Under the pieces are notes generated by a model. That model had not been told where the DNA came from. It did no database searches and worked only from the letters and a program-made list of their open reading frames with translations. This document shows, in pieces, positions 8,103 to 17,001 of a stretch of 43,996 bases of DNA. This DNA is from Crocinitomicaceae bacterium (GTDB taxonomy: Bacteria > Bacteroidota > Bacteroidia > Flavobacteriales_D > Sanyastnellaceae). The position numbers were made by a program, and so were the translations under genes. Where the stretch lies: positions 89,014-133,009 of the forward strand of contig NZRP01000045.1 in the NCBI GenBank assembly GCA_002693775.1, written 5' to 3'. Numbering within the stretch: the first letter of the stretch is position 1; each line of letters opens with the position of its first letter.

Positions 8103-8411
8103 ATGAAAAATTTTTTGCTTTTTATCATAACGGCAACTATACTTGGATGTTCTCCAAATACAGTAAATGTTCTCGAAGGATATAGTACAGAAGGTTTGAC
8201 TTACGAAAATGCCTCAGTATATTATAATGGCAAACTTGCGGCTACTCTTGGCTCTGTAGAGGTAGCATATGACGACGGTAAACTTATTAGAGAGGCAACA
8301 TTCATTTTGACCTCATCAGAATTTAATGATATTGCAATTAATATCATCAAACTAATACAGCAAAAGAAAGAAGACCCTGACTGGGAAATTGAAGTAGAAT
8401 TAAAACTTTAA
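8103..8411 (+). CDS. Small hypothetical lipoprotein
   Basis: A 102-residue protein with a lipoprotein signal (MKNFLLFIITATILGC), lipidated at the cysteine. The mature part is short and mixed in charge, with no domain I recognise. Its stop codon overlaps the stop codon of the convergent TonB receptor (bases 8408-8411), so no terminator separates the two. Base composition is AT-rich like that receptor. Probably an envelope protein of unknown role. Confidence 0.7.
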   Translation: MKNFLLFIITATILGCSPNTVNVLEGYSTEGLTYENASVYYNGKLAATLGSVEVAYDDGKLIREATFILTSSEFNDIAINIIKLIQQKKEDPDWEIEVELKL

Positions 8412-11400
8412 TTTTCTTTTTCAGAAAAATTATATGAGAGGCCCAAAGTGAATGTCCTTCCAATATTGAAATTTTGGAAGTCATACTCTACGTCTTTGAA
8501 GGTGTATGTTTGCTTGTATTCAGGGTCGAGCAAATTTCTTCCTTTTAAGCTAATAGATAATTTATCTCCAAGAGTTTTATTTATACTCATGTCAAGAGTT
8601 CCTCTTGGTTGATCATATACATCTGGAGTTCCACCAGGCGTAACAAGTACTAATTTCTCGCCACTTATATTAAAGCCACTATTTATGCTTAATCCTTTCT
8701 CTTGATTAACATAACTAATCATGCTATTTATAATGTATGGCGATTGACCAAACATTGGTCTTGTATCAGCATGATCGGGATCTGTAGCTCGAATTTCTAT
8801 CAATTCGTCGTTAGCAATACTGGTTTTGCTTTGAATGTAAGTTGTATTAAACGCAAAGTTGAAGTTTTTAAATCCTTCAGTGATAAATCCAAGATTTTTC
8901 TTTACTTCAAGTTCAGCACCAAACAATTGAGCTCTCTCTACATTTTTCCAAGTAATTTCAGTATTAGAAGCTGTTGAAATGATTACTTGTTCAATTGGAT
9001 CTGTAAAACTTTTATAAAAACCAGTAATGGAAATTATTTCTCCTAAGTTTGGAAAGAATTCAATCCGATTGTCAATGTTTAAGACTTTTGTTCTGTTTAA
9101 ATCAGTGTTGCCAGTTTGTTGTTCCTGAATTTCAAAATCAAATACTGAGAACGGGGCTTTTTCTCTAAAGAGTGGTCTAGCTACACTTTGGCTTGCAGAA
9201 AATCTTAAGTTTATACTTTGTAATTCCTGTTCATACAAAGTGTATGTCATATTCAAAGAGGGAAGAATATCAATTACGTCTAACGAACCTCGATAATTTT
9301 CCTGTAATTCATCTGACAATTCTTCTTCTTCAATAATGGCACTTTCTAAAAGCATATTTGTTGCTTCGACTCTAACCCCTGTGTTTATTCGTAAAAATTC
9401 TGTAGGGGTAAGGTCTAGCATTGTATATCCACCTAACACACTTTGAGATGCATCGTAGCTGTTTTGAATATCAGTGTCATCTCGTAAGTATAAATAATTT
9501 CCTCCATTCGATGCATCACCCGGTATAATATTCATATTATTTGGGTTGAAATAATTTGTTGGATCGCCATCATAATTTATACCACTAGAAACAAAACTGA
9601 ATCTATTTTCCGAATAGTTTCTAGTTTTTAAAACATACGATATTCCCAATGACAACTTATTTTCTTCACCTAAATTTTTAAGAGGCCTAATGTAATTGAT
9701 TTTCAGATCAGTAGTTTTGTTGACCATATCCCTGTAAAATCTTGTTGGTGAGGGATATAAATTATCCATAATGCTATACGTTAGTTGTCCGTTTTCAATT
9801 TCTTCAGAAGAGAAATTTGGGTAGTATTCTTCCAACGCTTCACCATCATTAATTAATGCAACAGCTTCATCAGTAATATTGTTGCCGTTTTCATCAAAAT
9901 ATAAAGTCCCTTCTTCAAGTTCTTCATAACTATTTATGAATGATCTTAAATCTGGTGTAGACTGCTTGCCTTTAGTATATGAAGCGGTCCAAGTAATTTT
10001 ATTACCTGAGTTTTCCCAAAGCTCATGCTCACCTCTTAATTGGTATACATTCATCCCCCTTTCTAAGTATCTCTGCAGTGTTTGTTCTTGCCCTAAACCA
10101 ACTGCATCACTAGGATTTATACCGTTTTGATACCGAGCATCATTTATTCCTGAAACATTTGGCATAAATGTAAAACCAAGTGTTGTTGTTGGATTTAAAT
10201 TGTAGGCAAGGTTAATTAATGCAGAAGTATATACCGATCGAGTGCCTCTTATATCAGATAGTTGTCTTTGAACTTCCAGCTCATCTTTTTCTGCTTCAAT
10301 ACCAGTTAATGTATACCTTCCAGTTCTCCCATCTTCGTAAAGTCGGCTGTTTAATTTGTATTGAAATCCAACGTTGTAACCAAATTGGCGATTAAATAGT
10401 TTTAAATTATCTCCAAAAGAAAAGCTTTGTGAAATATCTAAAATTGGAGTTATTTTCTTAGGTACCCAATTGTTTTGAAAACCTTGTGTTTGATTTGATA
10501 GATTTTGGTTCAGCTCTTCACGAATGTCTGTCATAATAACATCATCGATATAGTCTACGGATTCAATTTCCAGATTATTTACGAGTGTGTAAATGTTAGT
10601 TTGATTCTGGTTAAAACCGATATCTTCAGAAGAAAATATGCCTAATTCAGCAAGTTCATTTTCATATCCTGCGTATACTAAAGCGTCATAGTAATTGGAA
10701 ACTTGAACAGGAAGAATATCACCATTGCTTATAGAATTTGGGATATCGAGAAAACCATTGTCCCAGCCAAATAATTCCGTACTTCCAGCCTCACTTGTAA
10801 TAAAGTTTTGATTAAAAGATGCATTTGTATTGTAACCAATTGAGGTAGAGTAATTAAACGTAAAGTTGTCAGGATAATCTTTTGTTAAAATGTTGATATA
10901 AGCTCCTGAATAATTAGATGGGAGATTTGAATTTAAGGTTTTAACAACAACTAAATTGTCTATCAAATTAGTTGGGAATAAGTCCATTGAAACAGAACTT
11001 CTTTTTGGATCTAAAGAAGGTATTTCGGCTCCATTTAAGGCGGTTCTTATATATCGATCACTTAAGCCTCTAACAACAACAAAATTTCCAATTGTGTAAA
11101 CACCACTTACTCGTTTAATTGCACTACTTACGTCACTATCACCATTCTTCTTTATATCTTGTGAAGACACATAATCAATCATAGTGCTTTCTTTTTTCTT
11201 TATATTCTCCATATAAAGTGTACTAGATCTGTTTTGCCTTACTTCAACGATTGCCTCATTATCAATTGCAATAACTGAAGACTCTAGAGAAAAATCTAAA
11301 GTAATAGTCTCGTTTCCTGTAATTTCCACATCTTGTTTAAGTGTCTTATACGCAATAAATCTTCCACTAAATGTGTAAATCCCAGGTGCTAGACCGCTAA

Positions 11401-11578
11401 TTGTATAATTTCCATCGAAATCGGTCATTGTGCCCTTCCCAGATGATTCAATGATTACTGTTGCACCTAATAACACATCTCCATTTGACTTATCTGTCAC
11501 TACTCCTTTGACTGTTCCTTGAGCATTTAACTGACAAATTGTAAGTATGAAAAGAATGAGTCCTAGATAATTTTTCAT
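8408..11578 (-). CDS. TonB-dependent outer-membrane receptor with carboxypeptidase-regulatory-like N-domain
   Basis: A 1056-residue TonB-dependent transporter for active uptake across the outer membrane. It has a signal peptide ending LNAQ, a CarboxypepD_reg-like domain at about residues 20-110 (GVVTDKSNGDVLLGATV, DFDGNYTISGL), then a plug with SSAIKRVSGVY and VVRGLSDRYIRTALNG, and a long barrel. SusC proteins are normally paired with a SusD lipoprotein. There is none here; instead the upstream neighbour is a T9SS-exported protein. With PhoR/PhoB and a PiT-like transporter in the same block, a phosphate or organophosphate ligand is possible (inference). A terminator at 11661-11689 separates it from the T9SS gene, so it likely has its own promoter. 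Confidence 0.93.
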   Translation of the reverse strand: MKNYLGLILFILTICQLNAQGTVKGVVTDKSNGDVLLGATVIIESSGKGTMTDFDGNYTISGLAPGIYTFSGRFIAYKTLKQDVEITGNETITLDFSLESSVIAIDNEAIVEVRQNRSSTLYMENIKKKESTMIDYVSSQDIKKNGDSDVSSAIKRVSGVYTIGNFVVVRGLSDRYIRTALNGAEIPSLDPKRSSVSMDLFPTNLIDNLVVVKTLNSNLPSNYSGAYINILTKDYPDNFTFNYSTSIGYNTNASFNQNFITSEAGSTELFGWDNGFLDIPNSISNGDILPVQVSNYYDALVYAGYENELAELGIFSSEDIGFNQNQTNIYTLVNNLEIESVDYIDDVIMTDIREELNQNLSNQTQGFQNNWVPKKITPILDISQSFSFGDNLKLFNRQFGYNVGFQYKLNSRLYEDGRTGRYTLTGIEAEKDELEVQRQLSDIRGTRSVYTSALINLAYNLNPTTTLGFTFMPNVSGINDARYQNGINPSDAVGLGQEQTLQRYLERGMNVYQLRGEHELWENSGNKITWTASYTKGKQSTPDLRSFINSYEELEEGTLYFDENGNNITDEAVALINDGEALEEYYPNFSSEEIENGQLTYSIMDNLYPSPTRFYRDMVNKTTDLKINYIRPLKNLGEENKLSLGISYVLKTRNYSENRFSFVSSGINYDGDPTNYFNPNNMNIIPGDASNGGNYLYLRDDTDIQNSYDASQSVLGGYTMLDLTPTEFLRINTGVRVEATNMLLESAIIEEEELSDELQENYRGSLDVIDILPSLNMTYTLYEQELQSINLRFSASQSVARPLFREKAPFSVFDFEIQEQQTGNTDLNRTKVLNIDNRIEFFPNLGEIISITGFYKSFTDPIEQVIISTASNTEITWKNVERAQLFGAELEVKKNLGFITEGFKNFNFAFNTTYIQSKTSIANDELIEIRATDPDHADTRPMFGQSPYIINSMISYVNQEKGLSINSGFNISGEKLVLVTPGGTPDVYDQPRGTLDMSINKTLGDKLSISLKGRNLLDPEYKQTYTFKDVEYDFQNFNIGRTFTLGLSYNFSEKEN

Positions 11579-11709: not shown

Positions 11710-13365
11710 CTATTCAATAATAATTTTTGAATATTGTATTTGGTTATCACTAAAAATATTTACTAAATACATTCCCTCTGACAAATTCATTAAATCGATG
11801 TTTACAATTTCGCCAGCGCTAACATCTTTAGTGTTTTGATATACTAGTCTTCCATTTAAGTCGATGATATTTACGCTGGAATTTTCTAACGCAGCTTCAA
11901 AATAAATTGAGAACTGACCGTTGGTAGGATTTGGGAAAATTGAGAACTTAGATTTTATAGCTTCATCAATATTAGAAGCATCGCAACTAATAAATCCTCT
12001 TTCGCTTAGCATAGACCATCCATCTAGCCATGTGCATTCTAAATTGGGATCAAAGGCTCCAGGATAGCTATTTGTTTCAAACCAATCTAGTTCAGCAGAT
12101 GAGCCAACGGGTAATGCAACAGTAGGTATTAAATTTAAAAGACCTGCCCCTTGTATAATAGTATTGTTTATTCCTGTGGAAGCTACGCTATTGTCATTTT
12201 CATCAAAAATAGCTTGAAATACTGATGATGAATTATTAGCAGCTTCTGTAGAATCACTTTCTGACGACCATCCAGATCCCATTGATATTGTAAACAAATC
12301 ACTTGAAGTTGCATTTAATCCTTCAGCAGTACATTGATCAAACACATTTCCCTCAAACACAATTTCATCATTAGTTAGTCTTGCATATGAATCTTCTCCA
12401 GATGCTAAATTTTCAACATCAAAGCCTTTCCCCCAACCATAAAATATAGAGTTGTGGTATTCTCCAGCGGCGTTGTCTCTTAAAGTAAGTGCTCGTTTTC
12501 CCGCTGTTGAGCCTTGCCCAATATATGTTGCGTTATAGATGATAGGGTGTGCATATGGAAGCCCGTCTTCAGGGTCTGTTCCGCCATCATGTTCTCCGCC
12601 TCTATCGCCTTCTCCTTCCTCTTGAATAGTACACCAATATTGACCATACCCTCTCCAACCTTCGTCATAATCAAATGAGTCGTCACCACAAAAAGCAGTA
12701 AGAACATATTTTATTGATGCGGTTCCTCCGAAAAATTCAACACCATCGTCAGCATTAGAGATTACTTCAATATGGTCGAAGTTTGTGTTAGATCCAACTC
12801 CACCAAGAGTAAGTCCATTGATTTCGTTGCCCGCTCCAATATCAGTTCCACCATGTCTAATTGATACATATGACATTGAACCACTATTGTCCATGTCATC
12901 ATTACCGCCATATCGTCCTCTTGATTCAGTATCTGGTATTCCTTCAATCTGAGTTTCCCCAGGCGTAGAGTTAAGCTGTGCGTTTCCAAGAATGATTACT
13001 CCCCCCCATTGACCTCTGATATTATAAGGTGTTGAACCGTCGAGAGCATCGTTTTCAAACGTAAAAATAATTGGGCTATCGCTTGTTCCGTTTGCAAATA
13101 TTTTACCTCCTCGTGCTACAATTAGCGCAGATGCACTTGCGCCAGAACCAGATTTGCCTTTAATTACTGTTCCAGGTTCTATGGTTAAAATATCACCGCT
13201 ATTTACAAATACAAATCCATCAAGAATGTATATATTATCATTTGTCCATGTTGTTGTTCCTGTACCTGAACCATCATCAGTAATTGTTATCTGAGAAAAT
13301 AAGTTAGTTGAGATGCAGATGATTGCTGCAAATACAAGGAGAATAGAGATAAATTTTTTCATCAT
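11710..13365 (-). CDS. T9SS-exported beta-helix-like protein with type A C-terminal sorting domain
   Basis: A secreted protein of about 550 residues. The reading frame extends to a TTG at 13389, but the adjacent ATGs at 13365 and 13362 put a proper signal peptide (MKKFISILLVFAA... to LFSQ) at the start. The body has right-handed beta-helix character with motifs such as GTVIKGKSG, GQWGGVIILGNA, ADDGVEFFGG and GDDSFDYDEGWRG, rich in Asp and Gly, which may bind calcium. The last ~80 residues are a type A sorting domain (FSIFPNPTNGQFSI, LNGRLVY, LSEGMYLVNI) that directs export through the type IX system and usually attachment to the surface. It is next to the TonB receptor and downstream of a possible Pho box. 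A surface binding partner for that receptor is inferred, not shown. Confidence 0.9.
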   Translation of the reverse strand: MMKKFISILLVFAAIICISTNLFSQITITDDGSGTGTTTWTNDNIYILDGFVFVNSGDILTIEPGTVIKGKSGSGASASALIVARGGKIFANGTSDSPIIFTFENDALDGSTPYNIRGQWGGVIILGNAQLNSTPGETQIEGIPDTESRGRYGGNDDMDNSGSMSYVSIRHGGTDIGAGNEINGLTLGGVGSNTNFDHIEVISNADDGVEFFGGTASIKYVLTAFCGDDSFDYDEGWRGYGQYWCTIQEEGEGDRGGEHDGGTDPEDGLPYAHPIIYNATYIGQGSTAGKRALTLRDNAAGEYHNSIFYGWGKGFDVENLASGEDSYARLTNDEIVFEGNVFDQCTAEGLNATSSDLFTISMGSGWSSESDSTEAANNSSSVFQAIFDENDNSVASTGINNTIIQGAGLLNLIPTVALPVGSSAELDWFETNSYPGAFDPNLECTWLDGWSMLSERGFISCDASNIDEAIKSKFSIFPNPTNGQFSIYFEAALENSSVNIIDLNGRLVYQNTKDVSAGEIVNIDLMNLSEGMYLVNIFSDNQIQYSKIIIE

Positions 13366-13413
13366 TTTTTTTACAAAACAACAGAACAAACTGTAGTAGT
13401 AGTATCATCAAAA

Positions 13414-13474: not shown

Positions 13475-15079
13475 TTAAAAAATCTTTTCGAAGAAGTTCT
13501 CTATTCCTGCTTTAAATGCTTGAGGGATTTCAACAAGTACTTGATCGTATTCAAGACTATCATTAACGCCAACTGCAATAACTATTGAAATAAACAAACC
13601 TATTAAAGCAAAGCTCACATCCTTAATTGCAAGTTTTAATCCCCCAAAAACAGTGTTCGTTCCTGTCTTCATTAAAGACATACCAAGCTCACGTCCTGCA
13701 AGAAGACCAATAAATACCCAGGTTGTACTCATTGGAACTTCTGATATCATCTTAAAGTAGAATAAAATAATGCAGTAGATGAGGTCAATCATTGTCGCAA
13801 AACGTACATCAGTTACAACTGATTTTTCTGTTATAATCTTTTGGATGCGCCCACCCTTTTTGTAGAGTAAAATACCGAGCCCTATTGTCACTACAGAAAT
13901 AAAACATGTTACCTCAAGACCAGATAATTTTCTAGGAAGGAATACTGCAATGTTAGCTGCATCTTGAGTTAACCAAGTTGCCCATAGAAGCCCTGATGTC
14001 AGCCATTGTGCTAATGTCCACCAAGGTTTGGGAGTTCCGACGAAATGCTTTTTTGTAGCTTTTGCTACGATCATAAAGAAAGCCAGCCCTAAAATAAATG
14101 CCATCATATACCCACTCATACTTTTTGCAAGTACTTTGCCTACTGCATCTGTAGAAGCAGCAAAAGAGGTTAGCAGGATGAATGTTGTAGACACAGGCAT
14201 TCTAAGCCTAGTTAAGATAAGAAGGAATATTGCTGCCGATACTTGTAGGAAGTGAAACTTTACGGGTGTTTTTTCAAATCCCTTAGATGATAATCTTGCA
14301 TGACTAACATCACGATCGACAATGTTATTTCCAAAGAAAGTGATATTTAAATTTTCGCTATTAGACACACACTCTTTAGTTTCAAGGGGCATTTTAACCA
14401 CTCCAGCTTCTTGTGATTCAAGATTTAGATATTCAAGAGTGTGATAAGTGTTGAATGTATTTTCAACACTGTTTTCAGGATCATCTCTAAACTTAATGAG
14501 ATTCGTAACTTCACAAAGTTCTCCTTGAGAATTTAGATAAAAGCATACTCCATAGTCCTCATTAACATGATCTGTAGAGTAGTTAGTGAATCCCTTAATA
14601 TTTAGATCAGTTACACTCCATGAAACTTGTTTGCTAGATGCGTCAATAGTTAGCTTTAGTGATGGCGTTTTTAGTATCTCACCCGTTTTATTATCAATAG
14701 TGTAATTCCCGTAAAATGCCAGATTTCTATCCTCAGACTCCTTGCTTACTTTTTCAGTGAATAAAGTTACTCCGGTTTTGTCTACCTGAGTCCAACTATA
14801 AAGCATTGTTAAACAGAATATCCCACCAATAAAAATCCAAAGCACCCACCATTTTTTATCTTGGTTAGAGGCTATGAATGTCCCTATTGTTTGAATAGAA
14901 TCATTTGCTATTGCAGCATATGCTGCAAATAAAAACCCCACCCATCTAGCAATATGAGTGTGATCTGTAGCTATCATAGCTACAATAAATGCTAATGCTA
15001 TAAAGCTTAAGAATGATTGCTCTTTCTTATGTAACCATACTACTTCAGGATAGCTGAATACTTTGAAGAGCTTCTTCAT
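13475..15079 (-). CDS. PiT-like inorganic phosphate transporter with large inserted domain
   Basis: A 534-residue inner-membrane protein. The PiT family carries two inverted copies of a GANDxxN-type and a PxSTT-type signature. Here I see AIANDSIQTIG (residues 57-66) with MPVSTTF (294-300), and QDAANIAVFL (372-381) with VPMSTTW (448-454). PiT proteins bring phosphate in with H+ or Na+. Between the two halves, residues ~100-275 form a hydrophilic, beta-rich insert with several cysteines (CFYLNSQGELCE), presumably outside the cytoplasm. The gene lies after phoR, with a triple Pho-type repeat upstream and a 28-residue membrane ORF 9 bases before its ATG. Phosphate transport is likely; another small anion is possible. 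Confidence 0.75.
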   Translation of the reverse strand: MKKLFKVFSYPEVVWLHKKEQSFLSFIALAFIVAMIATDHTHIARWVGFLFAAYAAIANDSIQTIGTFIASNQDKKWWVLWIFIGGIFCLTMLYSWTQVDKTGVTLFTEKVSKESEDRNLAFYGNYTIDNKTGEILKTPSLKLTIDASSKQVSWSVTDLNIKGFTNYSTDHVNEDYGVCFYLNSQGELCEVTNLIKFRDDPENSVENTFNTYHTLEYLNLESQEAGVVKMPLETKECVSNSENLNITFFGNNIVDRDVSHARLSSKGFEKTPVKFHFLQVSAAIFLLILTRLRMPVSTTFILLTSFAASTDAVGKVLAKSMSGYMMAFILGLAFFMIVAKATKKHFVGTPKPWWTLAQWLTSGLLWATWLTQDAANIAVFLPRKLSGLEVTCFISVVTIGLGILLYKKGGRIQKIITEKSVVTDVRFATMIDLIYCIILFYFKMISEVPMSTTWVFIGLLAGRELGMSLMKTGTNTVFGGLKLAIKDVSFALIGLFISIVIAVGVNDSLEYDQVLVEIPQAFKAGIENFFEKIF

Positions 15080-15088
15080 GTAGGTAGC

Positions 15089-15175
15089 TTAAAGACCTAA
15101 AAAAAAGACACAGACCATTAACGCTATATATACTATAGCTGATAAGTCAATTGTTTTTGTATTAGAATTTTCCAT
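15089..15175 (-). CDS. 28-residue single-helix membrane mini-protein upstream of the PiT-like gene
   Basis: A short ORF with ATG at 15173-15175 and TAA at 15089-15091. The product begins MENSNTKTIDLS and continues as one hydrophobic helix (AIVYIALMVCVFFLGL). The stop is 9 bases before the PiT-like start codon, the spacing of translationally coupled genes, and the Pho-type repeats begin 57 bases upstream. I know no family for it. It could be a small transporter subunit or a leader ORF. The support is position, a clean start and stop, and a textbook transmembrane segment. Confidence 0.5.
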   Translation of the reverse strand: MENSNTKTIDLSAIVYIALMVCVFFLGL

Positions 15176-15232: not shown

Positions 15233-15261
15233 TGTTAAGTTAATGTTAAGACAACGTTAAG
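15233..15261 (-). promoter_or_regulatory. Predicted PhoB/PhoP box: three 11-base direct repeats
   Basis: On the plus strand TGTTAAG (15233), TGTTAAG (15244) and CGTTAAG (15255) recur at exactly 11 bases. Read towards the downstream genes they are TTAACG-N5-TTAACA-N5-TTAACA, the arrangement of Bacillus PhoP boxes and the 11-base repeat geometry of Escherichia coli PhoB boxes. The element overlaps the last codons of phoR and faces the mini-ORF and the PiT-like gene. Confidence 0.72.
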
Positions 15262-16307
15262 TTATCAACTTCTGTTGAAATCTTCTGTAGTGTAAAGCTG
15301 AAGGTTGTTCCCTTACCGTATGTAGATCGAACGTGAATATTCTGTCCATGGGCCTCAATAATGTGCTTAACAATAGCTAGTCCTAGACCTGATCCTCCAG
15401 CATTTCTTGACCTACTCTTATCCACTCTGTAAAACCTTTCATATATTCTCATAAGGTCTTTCTTCTTGATTCCTATTCCATCGTCACTAACTTCAATAAG
15501 GACTTTGTCACCCATATCGAAAAACTTAACCCTGGATTGTCCTCCATCTTTTCCATAGTTGATGGAGTTTACAAGAAGGTTTGAAACTACCTGTTCAATT
15601 TTATTTACATCACATAAAACTGTAAAGGGTTCTTTATCAGAAATACTGAGTGTGACATTAGACTTTTCAGCTTTTTTCTGAAGGCTGTCTATGATGTCAG
15701 AGCATAGATCGATGATGTTGGTAGGATGGAGGTCGATGCTCATTCTGCCAGACTCAATCTTGTAAATGCTGTCTAGATCTTCAAGAAGCCCTGTCATCCT
15801 ATCGATGTTTTTCTCAGCTTTTTTGAGGAATTTATCCCTTATTTCTGGATCATCCGCTCCGCCCTCTATCAGGGTCATAACAAATCCTTGTATGTTGAAT
15901 AGTGGGGTTTTTAATTCGTGAGCAAGGTTGCCGATAAAGTCCTTTCTAAACGAGTCAGTTTCTCTAAGAATGGTGATCTCTTCAATTTGTTCAGAAGCCC
16001 AATCCATAACGTCTTGGTTAACCTTTCCTATCACATCCTCGTCCATGTTGATTACGGGGTCAGCACTTCCCTTTATCTTACTAATGGTCTTGTATAAAAT
16101 CTTAATTCGTTGATTTATAAAGTCCTCAATAGCTCTGTAAATTACGAAGTAGCTGATTTCTTCGATGACTACACCTAGTGCAATTGCATAAAACCAATAG
16201 TCCAATGAGCCTATAGCAATCAGGACCATAATGGAAGTGATAAGACTAATTGCGCCAAGCTTAATGGCTGATTGTCTAGCAATTTTTTTAGGTGTGTTGT
16301 TTTTCAT
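15246..16307 (-). CDS. phoR: Sensor histidine kinase, PhoR-like
   Basis: A 353-residue membrane histidine kinase. Two hydrophobic segments lie within the first ~60 residues with almost no periplasmic loop, as in PhoR. A linker follows, then the HisKA box FIGNLAHELKTPL with the phospho-accepting histidine at 130, and an HATPase domain with N box (NSINYG), G1 (DDGIGI) and G2 (GGSGLGLAIVKHI). PhoR proteins sense phosphate status through the transporter and phosphorylate PhoB. The start ATG abuts the stop codon of the response-regulator gene with no gap. The 3' end carries the Pho-type repeats. The PhoR identity rests on architecture, the phoB partner and the PiT-like neighbour; the stimulus itself is not visible. 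Confidence 0.85.
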   Translation of the reverse strand: MKNNTPKKIARQSAIKLGAISLITSIMVLIAIGSLDYWFYAIALGVVIEEISYFVIYRAIEDFINQRIKILYKTISKIKGSADPVINMDEDVIGKVNQDVMDWASEQIEEITILRETDSFRKDFIGNLAHELKTPLFNIQGFVMTLIEGGADDPEIRDKFLKKAEKNIDRMTGLLEDLDSIYKIESGRMSIDLHPTNIIDLCSDIIDSLQKKAEKSNVTLSISDKEPFTVLCDVNKIEQVVSNLLVNSINYGKDGGQSRVKFFDMGDKVLIEVSDDGIGIKKKDLMRIYERFYRVDKSRSRNAGGSGLGLAIVKHIIEAHGQNIHVRSTYGKGTTFSFTLQKISTEVDNLTLS

Positions 16308-16985
16308 TTATCCAATGAATTTGTAGCCAACACCTTTTACGGTTTTAATAGCATCATTGTCCAGTTTTTCTCTAAGCTTCCTGATGTGAACGTCTATGGT
16401 TCTGTCGCCAACAACTACTTCAGCACCCCAAATCTTATCCATTATCTCTTCTCTTGTGTGGACTGTACCAGGATCAGAGCAAAGAAGTGTGAGGAGCTTG
16501 AATTCTTTTCTAGGAAGTACTATGTCTGTGCCATCGAATTTCACACTGTGATGCTTAGTATTAATTTCGATTCGGCCTTCATTGATGATGGATGCTTGAG
16601 TAACTTCAGTCTTAATACCACCTCGCCTGAGTAGAGCTTTTACTCGACTTACAAGCACTTTAGGCTTGATGGGTTTAAGAATGTAGTCGTCAGCACCTGC
16701 GTCGAATCCTGCTATTTGGCTATAGTCTTCACCTCTTGCAGTAAGAAATGCAATCATAACAGTCTTTAGTTTTTCAGATTCACGGATTTTCTCACATGTT
16801 TCAATGCCATCCATCTCAGGCATCATCATGTCAAGAAGAATCAGATCTGGCTCAAACTCATTTGCAATGCGAATCCCCTCTTCTCCATTACTCGCAACCA
16901 TTACCTTGTACTCTAATGCTCTCAGATTATATGAGAGGAAGTCAAGGATGTCGCTTTCGTCATCAACTATAAGGATTTTTTTCAT
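16308..16985 (-). CDS. phoB: Response regulator, PhoB-like (OmpR family)
   Basis: A DNA-binding response regulator of 225 residues. The receiver domain has the acidic pair DDE near residue 8, phospho-acceptor D52 in LILLDMMMPEMDG, and the switch residues T and K (FLTARGED, LKPIKP). The C-terminal winged helix (LPRKEFKLLTLL, VGDRTIDVHIRKLREKL, KGVGYKF) is OmpR/PhoB type. I start at the ATG at 16985, not at a TTG two codons upstream, since MKKILIVDDE is the usual beginning. The VOC gene ends 16 bases upstream, so phoB-phoR look like the tail of the pheT operon. Expected to bind the 11-base repeats at 15233-15261. Confidence 0.88.
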   Translation of the reverse strand: MKKILIVDDESDILDFLSYNLRALEYKVMVASNGEEGIRIANEFEPDLILLDMMMPEMDGIETCEKIRESEKLKTVMIAFLTARGEDYSQIAGFDAGADDYILKPIKPKVLVSRVKALLRRGGIKTEVTQASIINEGRIEINTKHHSVKFDGTDIVLPRKEFKLLTLLCSDPGTVHTREEIMDKIWGAEVVVGDRTIDVHIRKLREKLDNDAIKTVKGVGYKFIG

Positions 16986-17001
16986 AGACAATAGGGTTGT
17001 G

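Follow-up and report, generated by a model that had tools for sequence, protein, structure and literature searches.

A 28-residue membrane protein inherited with one clade of PiT-type phosphate transporters in Bacteroidota: a probable accessory subunit

The minus strand of positions 15175–15089 of the window (the whole stretch of 43 996 nucleotides analysed here) is a real protein-coding gene under purifying selection. Its product, a mini-protein of 28 residues, is linked to a Pho-type box and is inherited and duplicated with one clade of PiT-type phosphate transporters only. In our view the mini-protein is probably a single-helix inner-membrane protein that acts as an accessory subunit dedicated to the adjoining starvation-induced PiT; it would bind to the transporter and have a positive effect on transport. 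The features of the locus are listed in Table 1.

Table 1. Features of the mini-protein locus, with coordinates in the window
Feature	Position	Strand	Remarks
PiT-type phosphate transporter	13475..15079	(-)	534 aa; beta-rich insertion at residues ~98-255; top fold match TmPiT 6l85
Gap from mini-gene stop to transporter start	15080..15088	(-)	9 nt; 5-197 nt in relatives
Mini-protein gene	15089..15175	(-)	28 aa; polar N-terminus, one hydrophobic helix reaching the C-terminus; basis: 41 homologues, purifying selection
Pho-type box	15234..15260	(-)	TTAAC repeats with an 11-bp period, overlapping the 3' end of the phoR-like gene
PhoR-like sensor kinase	15246..16307	(-)	HisKA, HATPase_c; PnpS/PhoR models best but below cut-offs
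PhoB-like response regulator	16308..16991	(-)	Response_reg, Trans_reg_C; PhoB model is the best match, below its cut-off

The original prediction placed an in-frame ATG and TAA at these positions, and translation of the minus strand from the ATG at 15175 to the TAA at 15091–15089 indeed reads MENSNTKTIDLSAIVYIALMVCVFFLGL*. The predicted coordinates are exact and need only the strand, which had not been given; read on the plus strand, these positions are rich in stops. The nine bases said to separate the stop from the transporter ATG (15079) were also counted, while the upstream Pho-type box lies 58 nt from the mini-gene ATG by our recount and not 57 as first stated.

An ORF of 28 codons is by itself no more than chance, and it is conservation that makes this one significant. 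A transporter protein search of genome contigs gave 62 loci. In the close loci, mostly labelled Flavobacteriales, an ORF of 26–33 aa lies directly 5' of the transporter and encodes the motif [DE]-[LI]-S-x-x-[VIL]-Y-x-x-[IL]-[ML]-x-x-V-[FY]-x-x-A. Together, the transporter-locus and whole-genome searches yielded 41 distinct homologues of 25–33 aa, each with one predicted helix. Frameshifts or a lost start codon in relatives, which had been named beforehand as signs against a gene, were not seen: all 41 homologues start with ATG and are in frame. The proposed comparison of synonymous and non-synonymous change revealed a strong synonymous bias, with 74 synonymous changes at 229 sites and 68 non-synonymous changes at 782 sites in 12 disjoint close pairs (pN/pS = 0.27; Fisher P of about 6e-17). 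In the same pairs the changes fell 42, 24 and 76 times on the first, second and third codon positions, and in most close pairs the ORF is better conserved than the 24-nt gap 3' of it. A chance ORF, for which the not improbable length of 28 codons might speak, is rejected on the pN/pS value and the codon-position pattern, and the in-frame homologues and the less conserved gap also argue against it; we regard this explanation as extremely improbable.

The prediction of one hydrophobic helix was borne out, since the 18 C-terminal residues have a mean Kyte–Doolittle hydropathy of 2.66. The predicted helix is short (about 17–18 residues), and charges are mixed at the N-terminus and absent from the C-terminal half; we infer that the protein inserts in the inner membrane as a single helix. 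Conservation among the homologues follows a helical period which places S12, Y16, I19/M20, V23 and A27 on one face (P = 0.0002–0.006). When S12 and Y16, both of which are favoured by the motif search, are left out, P is 0.002–0.04. A helix that packs against a partner would be expected to show this pattern, and the conserved face is suggestive of physical binding to the transporter.

Searches with 30 members of the family gave no match worth naming in Pfam or NCBIfam, including the known small-subunit families, and no match was found in the PDB. The description of the mini-protein as unannotated therefore stands only insofar as these two family databases contain no family for it; the GMSC catalogue predicts ORFs from 30 nt upward (PMC11364881), and some members may be included there as uncharacterised entries. 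A full-text search of open-licence papers found no paper on the mini-protein. No phage or plasmid homologue was matched by tblastn, a search of low power with a 28-aa query.

Coupling to the PiT-like transporter, as originally proposed, is supported by synteny, by exact co-occurrence in a blind sample and by the transporter tree. A PiT lies 3' of every fetched homologue that was scored, on the same strand and 9–197 nt away, the gap being 5 nt in locus L206. The mini-protein was found in 37 of the 376 genomes sampled from the order of genome G067. For the blind sample, transporters were searched for in 160 genomes of that order, which is not the order of the window, picked by handle number only (G799–G958). 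The 21 genomes with the matching transporter clade are exactly the 21 with the mini-protein, which is present in none of the other 139 (eight whose PiTs are remoter and begin to align at residue 7 or beyond, and 131 without a PiT). The corresponding P value of 1e-26 overstates independence because the genomes are related. Two of the 21 are imperfect: the G881 match covers only the first part of the transporter, near a contig end, and the G859 transporter is frameshifted. In the latter (locus L207, 1221–2467) the mini-gene is intact and the PiT that follows is spread across more than one frame, through either an assembly error or decay of the transporter.

The same association is seen at closer range. 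In the family of G067 the seven genomes out of ten that carry the mini-protein are also those with the transporter, and in the window's genus the mini-protein and the matching PiT are confined to the same four genomes (G000, G003, G007 and G012). A record labelled Euryarchaeota (isolate SP189; locus L003) matches G012 and is probably a mislabelled MAG. No other convincing match was found in a sample of 399 genomes from the window's order, in which three further weak ones have E values of 0.005–0.009, and the window's own genome gave the sole match among 395 genomes sampled at class level.

Further upstream the neighbours differ by locus and include same-strand phoR, divergent phoB, pst genes, a porin and unrelated genes. 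The mini-protein might act on some other membrane protein of the Pho regulon, such as PhoR or a component of a porin-assembly or stress pathway, and be merely parked before the PiT. The frequency of phoBR and porin genes as neighbours would fit this, and small proteins acting on PhoR, namely DUF1127 proteins, are known from elsewhere (PMC12501420). However, the PiT is constant where phoBR and porin neighbours are variable or absent, and within one genus the genomes that have another PiT are without the mini-protein, so that we consider a target other than the PiT improbable.

The partner is PiT-like by fold, in agreement with the original prediction: for two AF2 models the best fold match is TmPiT (6l85; probability 1.00, E = 4e-4), with modest global TM-scores for the fold matches (0.28–0.47) which indicate that the domain arrangement is not well predicted. 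The window transporter does not reach the gathering score of PHO4 (PF01384; 16.6 versus 33.7 bits), and 14 of 53 members match this model at a weak score, the best E value among relatives being 8.5e-7. Compared with TmPiT and the PiT family, it belongs to a divergent branch from Bacteroidota and carries an additional insertion. This insertion of about 155 residues, predicted as beta-rich with low confidence, is absent from most relatives (380 aa); insertions of similar size are present in the PiTs of L210, L062 and L001, and shorter ones in some others. The first 17 residues (15029–15079, minus strand) carry a pattern, MKKLF..F.YP..VW..K.E, which is common to the mini-protein PiT clade and absent from remoter PiTs. 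It is a candidate docking element, although both lineages that lost the mini-protein have kept it. PiT transporters are normally regarded as single-protein carriers.

The Pho-type box consists of three 11-bp direct repeats, TTAACGTTGTC-TTAACATTAAC-TTAAC, read from 15260 to 15234, and the phoR-like and phoB-like genes lie upstream of the mini-gene on the same strand. By a loose pattern, 36 of 37 loci have a Pho-type repeat 45–84 nt 5' of the start codon of the mini-gene, as is expected of a member of the Pho regulon. From the conserved box and the adjoining phoBR we infer control of the mini-gene and PiT by PhoB. Directly downstream of the PiT are a T9SS-sorted secreted protein (11710–13389) and a TonB-dependent receptor (8408–11578), both on the minus strand; similar proteins are encoded near the PiT in L001 and L026. 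The phoBR operon of F. johnsoniae likewise includes a TonB receptor and a pectin-lyase-fold lipoprotein that low phosphate strongly induces (PMC8115612).

Sequence prediction places a hairpin, then a T-run, and a second Pho-type repeat in the gap between mini-gene and PiT in at least three loci (L006, L017 and L058), and a second repeat is also present in L007. In these three loci the two genes appear each to be under their own Pho promoter. This arrangement bears on the idea of a leader peptide or coupling uORF, in which translation and not the product would control PiT expression. In many loci only 5–39 nt separate the ORF from the PiT, which would permit translational coupling, but a leader peptide would not need separate promoters, and it would always lie in cis on one transcript, which is not what is predicted for the three loci. 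The conservation of the hydrophobic helix in its amino-acid sequence, with a single conserved face, also speaks against it. A leader peptide is thus made unlikely, and we give it slightly less weight than an unrelated Pho-regulon target.

The mini-protein shares with the MgtS/AcrZ/KdpF-like class a genuine short protein, one predicted membrane helix and a genetic link to one transporter. The nearest precedent in size, single helix and PiT-family partner is MgtS of E. coli, a 31-aa membrane protein of Mg2+ starvation which acts on PitA and MgtA and is thought to inhibit PitA (PMC10710835). MgtS differs in its reported link to Mg2+ starvation and in its supposed inhibitory effect, whereas the mini-protein is encoded next to its PiT and downstream of a Pho-type box; no sequence relation to MgtS emerged from the family searches. 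AcrZ (E. coli, 49 aa) is likewise a single-helix partner packing on a transporter membrane domain, that of AcrB, but it is larger, its partner is an RND pump and the mini-protein has no family match. KdpF, of about 29 aa, is the small subunit of the Kdp K+ pump. It resembles the mini-protein in being a tiny hydrophobic protein encoded by the first gene of its transporter's operon, and differs in that Kdp is a P-type ATPase and the mini-protein matches no small-subunit family in Pfam or NCBIfam.

The precedent of a 31-aa protein acting on a PiT (PMC10710835) also lends some weight to a regulatory role, in which the mini-protein would not be a constant subunit and would bind the PiT to inhibit or redirect it, like MgtS on PitA, or control its turnover in the manner of MgtR or MgtU. 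The separate Pho-type promoters of L006, L017 and L058 would allow the ratio of mini-protein to PiT to vary. Against this, the mini-protein appears to be made under the PiT's own starvation signal, where inhibition would be counter-productive, and its co-inheritance with a single PiT clade is what a subunit would show. We consider a regulator unlikely, if less so than the two preceding alternatives, and prefer an accessory subunit. As such, phosphate starvation would activate PhoB, which would bind the TTAAC repeats and switch on the mini-gene and PiT; the mini-protein would enter the membrane as one helix, and its face of S12, Y16, I19/M20, V23 and A27 would pack on the PiT of its clade, aiding assembly, stability or activity.

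On a PiT tree of 106 rows all mini-protein PiTs fall in one clade (SH-aLRT 100). With L206 taken as a carrier of the mini-protein (label corrected), the history fits one gain and two losses, the latter in L012 and in L026/L029/L032. Searches of the rest of the genome for L012, L026 and L029 gave no convincing mini-protein, and these two lineages of the clade indicate that the mini-protein is not strictly essential for that PiT. L026 and L032 are nearly identical PiT loci on different contigs of one MAG (MED1094), neither of which has the mini-gene. In the sister PiTs of Cyclobacteriaceae a Pho box immediately precedes the transporter gene, about 70–80 nt from its start, and no conserved small ORF intervenes, so that promoter and transporter seem to have been adjacent before the mini-gene arrived between them. 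As possible analogues, small ORFs 5' of remoter PiTs (L117, L118, L120, L187 and L188) were considered and rejected, since they are the final part of a longer frame that begins upstream. The clade of the window's genus, which belongs to another order, branches from within MAGs labelled Flavobacteriales; this nesting and the restriction to four genomes of the genus imply horizontal transfer, and mini-gene and PiT appear to have entered part of the genus as a pair, as judged from a quickly built tree in which the window has a long branch. In G003 the pair is present twice, at L004 and L060 on different contigs, the second ending at a contig edge.

The window's genome (92% complete) gave no PstB, and a PstB match is absent from 34 of the 41 genomes with the mini-protein. 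As Pst is mostly absent, the PiT of the mini-protein clade may be the main phosphate importer. Replacement of Pst as the reason for the mini-protein was rejected: lack of Pst is equally common in genomes without it (pstB in 7/41 genomes with and 5/39 without the mini-protein; P = 0.76). We propose tentatively, with rather less than even confidence, that the mini-protein represents an undescribed family of single-helix subunits for PiT, gained once in one lineage of marine Bacteroidota by insertion between a Pho promoter and the PiT and making a starvation-grade importer where Pst is mostly absent.

The locus illustrates that a gene of 28 codons can be established from comparative sequence even when Pfam and NCBIfam offer no model. 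If the proposed role is correct, a co-inherited 28-aa partner linked to phosphate starvation would offer a clean, naturally linked system for the effect of an added helix on a secondary transporter. The pair may also bear on the uptake of scarce phosphate by small-genome bacteria, most of which, among those surveyed here, have no PstB match.
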